A stretch of 64,000 nucleotides of DNA from Gammaproteobacteria bacterium (GTDB lineage Bacteria > Pseudomonadota > Gammaproteobacteria > Eutrophobiales > Eutrophobiaceae). Of this stretch, positions 24,796 through 25,465 are shown piece after piece. A model generated the notes under the pieces. It saw only the letters and a list, made by a program, of their open reading frames with translations. It was not told where the DNA came from and made no database searches. The stretch lies in contig JAURNY010000032.1 in NCBI GenBank assembly GCA_030829955.1, positions 1 to 64,000 of the forward strand. The letters run 5' to 3'. The position numbers and the translations under genes are program-made. Within the stretch, counting starts at the first letter, position 1. Each line of letters begins with the position of its first letter.

Positions 24796-25347
24796 TTACC
24801 AGATTGATTCCCCCGTCTCTGGGTTATACATTTCATGATGAATCTTGTTTCGATTTTCAATTAATTGATCAAGTGTTGGCTCATCATTCATTGCACGCTT
24901 AACGGCAATTTTCATCGCTTCATAATTACAACGATACAAATCTTTACGATCAAGATTTTTATCAGTAATACATTCAGGCGCAATCCAGACCATCGCGATA
25001 CAACATAGATTATTTGCGTAATCTTTAGGGATAATGCCATCGATAACCGAATCCAACATGGCATCTGCGATCGCAGACTGTACGGGACCACCTAATAAAT
25101 TCACATAAGCTGTTGATTTAATCGTCACCTTTGGAACAATTAGCGTTGCTGGTTTAACTTGTTGGTTACAAGCGCGAATAGCAAACATTCTCGTATGCCC
25201 TTCGGTTTGCCCCATGAGATTGGCAAAAGCATTGCCGACAGGACCACTAATATCACCGATAACAATTTCAGGCATGGCATCAGTAAACTGCCCTTCAGCA
25301 GCAAATACAGTCGCTTCGCCGCTTTTCATAATGATTTGAGCTGACAT
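24796..25347 (-). CDS. Formaldehyde-activating enzyme (Fae) homologue lacking the expected catalytic histidine
   Basis: 183 residues aligning along its length with Fae, which condenses formaldehyde with tetrahydromethanopterin in methylotrophs. Shared stretches: GEATV (10-14), SGPVGNAFANLM, KPATLIVPKVTI, GPVQSAIADAMLDSVIDGIIPKD, NYEAMKIAVKRAMNDEP. At the position of the conserved catalytic His of Methylobacterium Fae (VAHIDLIIG) this protein reads AMPEIVIG with Met25, and it has a short insertion beforehand and near ITDKNLDRKD. It may be one of the divergent Fae-like paralogues whose role is unsettled. Start is ATG at 25347 with AAGGAAATCCAA before it. It follows ubiB by 118 bases, with a 12-base palindrome between. 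Confidence 0.85.
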   Translation of the reverse strand: MSAQIIMKSGEATVFAAEGQFTDAMPEIVIGDISGPVGNAFANLMGQTEGHTRMFAIRACNQQVKPATLIVPKVTIKSTAYVNLLGGPVQSAIADAMLDSVIDGIIPKDYANNLCCIAMVWIAPECITDKNLDRKDLYRCNYEAMKIAVKRAMNDEPTLDQLIENRNKIHHEMYNPETGESIW

Positions 25348-25465
25348 TTGGATTTCCTTAAGTATGTAAAAATTTAGTAGGCGAAATGTAATACGAAAAG
25401 AAATAGAAACCTAGGTTTTATTGATTAATAAATAATTTCCATCGAGTTATTAAAAATTGTCTGGA

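Follow-up and report, generated by a model that had tools for sequence, protein, structure and literature searches.

Fae2, a paralogue of formaldehyde-activating enzyme with methionine at the site of the conserved histidine, as a candidate accessory of the tetrahydromethanopterin pathway

What might a homologue of formaldehyde-activating enzyme (Fae), by which bacteria living on methanol and methane trap formaldehyde, do when methionine occupies the site of the conserved histidine? The question is raised by a gene in the first 64,000 nucleotides of contig JAURNY010000032.1 (hereafter, the window) from the gammaproteobacterial assembly GCA_030829955.1. Judging by alignment and tree placement, this gene is fae2, encoding a paralogue that is already known but functionally unexplained, and the missing histidine is, across the sequences compared, an old and fixed trait of the entire Fae2 clade rather than a peculiarity of this genome. 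On balance, we favour the view that Fae2 is an accessory of the tetrahydromethanopterin (H4MPT) pathway, which would keep part of the pterin pocket, lack the histidine of canonical Fae1 and be unable to replace it. The relevant features are:

24796 to 25347, minus strand: fae2, the Met-type Fae paralogue (PF08714 match of 194.4 bits, identity to the Met clade and tree placement)
25273 to 25275, minus strand: codon of Met25, at the site of the conserved histidine (H21 in the 1y5y chain, H22 when the initiator methionine is counted), from an ungapped alignment
25350 to 25359, minus strand: putative Shine-Dalgarno-like sequence AAGGAAATCC, 5' of the fae2 start codon, read from the sequence

The open reading frame runs from an ATG at 25347 to a stop at 24796 and encodes 183 amino acids. 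An earlier note, made from the DNA sequence alone, had proposed a Fae homologue at this place, and PF08714 (Fae) indeed matches residues 10-173 of the product (E = 1.6e-57; curated cut-off, 27 bits), covering profile positions 2-158 of 159. With the NCBIfam equivalog TIGR03126, the score is 141.5 bits and the cut-off 118. The product has no C-terminal hexulose-phosphate synthase domain of the kind found in Fae-HPS, and NF009833 matches only at positions 2-161 of 392, below its cut-off. A search of the Protein Data Bank returned M. extorquens Fae (1y5y and 1y60), an engineered chain of identical Fae sequence and weak repeats, and the best structural matches of the AlphaFold model (mean pLDDT 75, with residues about 47-78 poorly predicted) were again 1y60 and 1y5y (E of about 1e-14; TM-score 0.71-0.75, normalized by query length). 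The window protein is 68-93% identical to the retrieved Met-clade orthologues. The ratio of nonsynonymous to synonymous substitution rates (dN/dS) is approximately 0.03 between the window gene and its relative L059 and 0.02 for the pair L058 and L059; between the window gene and L058, synonymous change is saturated. Thus, fae2 is under strong purifying selection, and the low dN/dS rules out a pseudogene or gene in decay.

The absence of the conserved histidine, which the earlier note had placed at Met25, was borne out by alignment. Residues A24-M25 of the window protein correspond to A20-H21 of 1y5y, a chain numbered without the initiator methionine, with no gap close by, in a phmmer alignment and in a 48-sequence profile alike; the alignment to 1y60 is equally gapless. 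The histidine of the VAHID motif is invariant in 69 of 69 canonical Fae sequences, which, with the role generally assigned to it in Fae, makes it probably the catalytic residue. Among 204 non-identical Fae sequences, the position is occupied by histidine in 74, methionine in 97 and glutamate in 32, and is missing from one truncated sequence. Methionine is found in 97 of 97 members of the Met clade, a set partly retrieved with a pattern containing the TDAM motif and hence biased, but also in those members retrieved by profile or tblastn; glutamate is found in 32 of 32 members of the sister clade and histidine in all canonical sequences. In the clade alignment, no other histidine clearly replaces the missing one. 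H51 was considered as a relocated catalytic residue and rejected: the Glu clade has it too, as does a divergent group in which the original histidine is retained. The missing histidine of Fae2 is not discussed in the open-access literature that we searched.

The Fae proteins of the relatives fall into three kinds, and the residue at the histidine position marks the clades of their tree, which was built without this diagnostic column, is unrooted and includes no archaeal Fae. A single branch sets off each of four groups from all other sequences, namely, canonical Fae, divergent His-bearing Fae (group D), Met and Glu, and the His, Met and Glu labels require two changes. Met and Glu sequences together are separated from the rest with a Shimodaira-Hasegawa-like approximate likelihood ratio test (SH-aLRT) support of 99, and the Met group alone with 74. 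The window protein accordingly lies outside canonical, active Fae, across the branch with support 99. The tree being unrooted, we infer the direction of change when we speak of a loss of histidine in the Met and Glu clades.

Plasmid 1p of M. aquaticum 22A is published as carrying fae2 (PMC7356819). The only Fae place on this plasmid is of the Met type and falls inside the Met clade, which is why we name that clade Fae2; the earlier note had not recognized this known clade, in which methionine is universal. The window protein shares with the 22A protein its clade, the methionine and 57% identity over residues 3-171, and neither gene is linked to a canonical fae; the window gene differs in belonging to a gammaproteobacterial branch and in being inserted between ubiB and ctpA. 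A 2024 phylogeny recognized five Fae groups, of which only groups 1 and 5 have a defined function, that of the other three being unknown (PMC11748545).

The Glu clade is probably Fae3, as judged from gene neighbourhood. The published Fae3 of Methyloversatilis is induced almost tenfold on methylamine (PMC5023235), and this fits a Glu-type gene on plasmid pLVM1 of Methylobacterium sp. DM1 (L285:403-5549), which stands directly behind genes for a glutamine amidotransferase, GlxC, a glutamate-synthase-family protein and GlnT. This gene set is of the N-methylglutamate pathway type, and the plasmid was typed as conjugative. The Glu clade, represented in the source genome by the copy on contig C23, likewise lacks the histidine and has the GPxG, GH and WxxP motifs in common with Fae2, but differs in carrying glutamate instead of methionine, in the substitutions Asn61 to Asp and Tyr142 to Arg, and in having N-methylglutamate-type or sensor-kinase genes alongside in some genomes. 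Glu-type genes were also seen in the vicinity of genes for a response regulator and for a histidine kinase of 690 aa (L054:4260-7839; L033, L036, L037 and others), and in many relatives the preceding gene encodes a protein of 800 aa that combines cyclic-nucleotide-binding and rhodanese domains.

Compared with canonical Fae1 (EC 4.2.1.147; 1y5y and 1y60), the window protein matches in fold, is 33% identical and keeps Lys71, Thr73, Gln88, Pro64 and Thr66, whereas it has Met25 for His22 and a five-residue insertion before Asp133. Lys73, Thr75 and Gln90 of Fae2 correspond to Lys71, Thr73 and Gln88 of M. extorquens Fae, residues that presumably contact the pterin; residues 20-163 of the M. extorquens reference row match the 1y5y alignments. 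The Met clade as a whole retains Lys73, Thr75, Gln90, Pro66, Thr68, Gly31, Glu11 and His171 in alignment with canonical Fae. Its substitutions are His22 to Met25, Asp24 to Glu27, Glu35 to Gly38, Gln79 to Tyr81, Gln82 to Leu84, Phe84 to Gly86, Phe119 to Trp121 and Trp122 to Pro124.

The genomic setting ties Fae2 to H4MPT. The earlier note had seen no H4MPT gene nearby, which holds within the window but not genome-wide. The source genome (1.89 Mb, 32 contigs) encodes three Fae proteins, namely, a His-bearing copy on contig C14, the Glu-type copy on C23 and the Met-type copy in the window, and the canonical fae lies near mch and genes of the ATP-grasp, HisA-like, GHMP-kinase, CitG and hydantoinase types, the kind found in the H4MPT clusters of methylotrophs. 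Because of these genes and of three pyrroloquinoline quinone (PQQ) dehydrogenases of the methanol/ethanol family, all above cut-off, the organism is very probably a gammaproteobacterium that oxidizes one-carbon (C1) compounds through an H4MPT pathway. The mch gene of this genome (G000:C14:64646-65589, L053) is broken towards the 3' end by what looks like a frameshift, with the C-terminal part in another frame, possibly an assembly error. Canonical fae genes of family f1 (L053:7451-8008 and others) show a conserved in-frame extension, MSIxxKLFGFLTGGDNK, before the usual MAVID start.

More broadly, Fae of any kind above cut-off was found in only 22 of the 398 genomes sampled from the phylum, and at least two Fae genes in 30 of 30 genomes of the set checked. 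The suggestion that the paralogue might be independent of H4MPT is contradicted by mch, present in 54 of the 55 Met-type carriers tested (the one carrier without it, G044, is a metagenome-assembled genome of 75% completeness), and by fhcBADC-fae operons: in Azoarcus KH32C, Aquabacterium olei and G311, fhcBADC is immediately followed by the Met-type gene, and chorismate-binding (pabB-type) and haloacid dehalogenase (HAD) genes come next in the first two. The Met-type gene lies no more than a few kb from H4MPT-cluster genes in a further six loci (L085, L090, L100, L103, L109 and L220). No other neighbour of the Met-type genes is conserved across the clade. The genes ubiE-ubiJ-ubiB do stand just upstream of the window gene on the same strand, as noted before; nevertheless, the ubiB-fae2 adjacency is confined to the window genome and two relatives, other relatives, close ones included, having other genes between ubiB and ctpA. 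The ubiB neighbour thus carries no functional signal. A scan of the gap at fae2 for promoters and terminators yielded nothing above shuffled sequences.

Divergent His-bearing group D (L222:4262-8641, L223, L224, L226) appears more unusual than the window fae2. An aldo/keto reductase gene adjoins the group D gene, some loci also have aldehyde dehydrogenase and sugar-transporter-type major facilitator superfamily genes, and four of the five carrier genomes are complete and lack mch. Group D may represent Fae used outside the H4MPT pathway.

Under the accessory reading, Fae2 would be an ancient paralogue in bacteria that oxidize C1 compounds via H4MPT, in which a part of the pocket for the pterin (Lys73, Thr75, Gln90) appears to be kept and the acid/base histidine to have been lost, with its surroundings rebuilt. 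Such a protein would be able to bind H4MPT or C1 derivatives of it but inefficient in condensing free formaldehyde. It could serve as a carrier or buffer of C1-H4MPT, act alongside Fhc or Fae1 as a partner, or catalyse a different C1 transfer. Published knock-outs agree with an accessory role: strains lacking fae1 and retaining fae2 fail to grow on methanol in both M. aquaticum (PMC7356819) and Methyloversatilis (PMC5023235), the Methyloversatilis Fae2 and Fae3 being taken by their published names. The M. aquaticum fae2 deletion, which grows more slowly on methanol (PMC7356819), likewise favours this reading. The fae3 of M. alcaliphilum 20Z, of either the Met or the Glu clade, was reported not to complement an AM1 fae1 deletion. 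Several points weigh against this reading. Most Met-type genes, including that of the window, lie outside H4MPT clusters; deletion of Fae2 or Fae3 in Methyloversatilis had no growth phenotype (PMC5023235); and the failure of strains without Fae1 to grow may be a matter of expression level rather than of activity.

A narrower possibility, which we hold only tentatively, is that Fae2 is a non-catalytic H4MPT binder, either a carrier passing C1-H4MPT to Fhc or a subunit in Fae1 oligomers, the catalytic histidine having been lost once, long ago, and Met (Fae2) or Glu (Fae3) then fixed. The candidate roles of the earlier note, among them the binding of a pterin or of formaldehyde and sensing, may still apply. 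It is doubtful that Fae2 condenses formaldehyde with H4MPT as a backup of Fae1 with low activity or low expression, using other residues such as Glu27 or His51. The retained fold and Lys73, Thr75 and Gln90, the conservative change of Asp to Glu at position 27 and the slower growth and lower yield of the M. aquaticum fae2 deletion on methanol (PMC7356819) are compatible with such a backup, but native fae2 rescues the fae1 deletion in neither M. aquaticum (PMC7356819) nor Methyloversatilis (PMC5023235), and several further residues invariant in canonical Fae are altered. Less probable still is that Fae2 senses formaldehyde or methylene-H4MPT and feeds regulation or chemotaxis. This role has been suggested for Fae-like proteins, and a methyl-accepting chemotaxis protein gene adjoins the Met-type gene in Azospirillum oryzae; however, no regulatory neighbour is conserved across the Met clade, and a published M. 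aquaticum mutant deleted for fae1, fae2 and hgd continues to swim in the direction of methanol and formaldehyde, which weakens a role in chemotaxis. Least likely, action on tetrahydrofolate or another pterin, shifting C1 units between carriers, was proposed for Fae homologues (PMC11748545, PMC5023235) and would suit the altered pocket, but the association with mch and fhc points to H4MPT, and the candidate for a link to methylamine is not the Met type but the Glu-type copy, which adjoins N-methylglutamate-type genes.

Taken together, the fixed division into His, Met and Glu types and the operons of fhcBADC with fae2 make Fae2 directly accessible to testing. TIGR03126 matches every Met-type protein scanned, so that Fae2, in spite of the missing histidine, receives, probably wrongly, the name of an active Fae, and the number of Fae copies may be miscounted in metabolic models.
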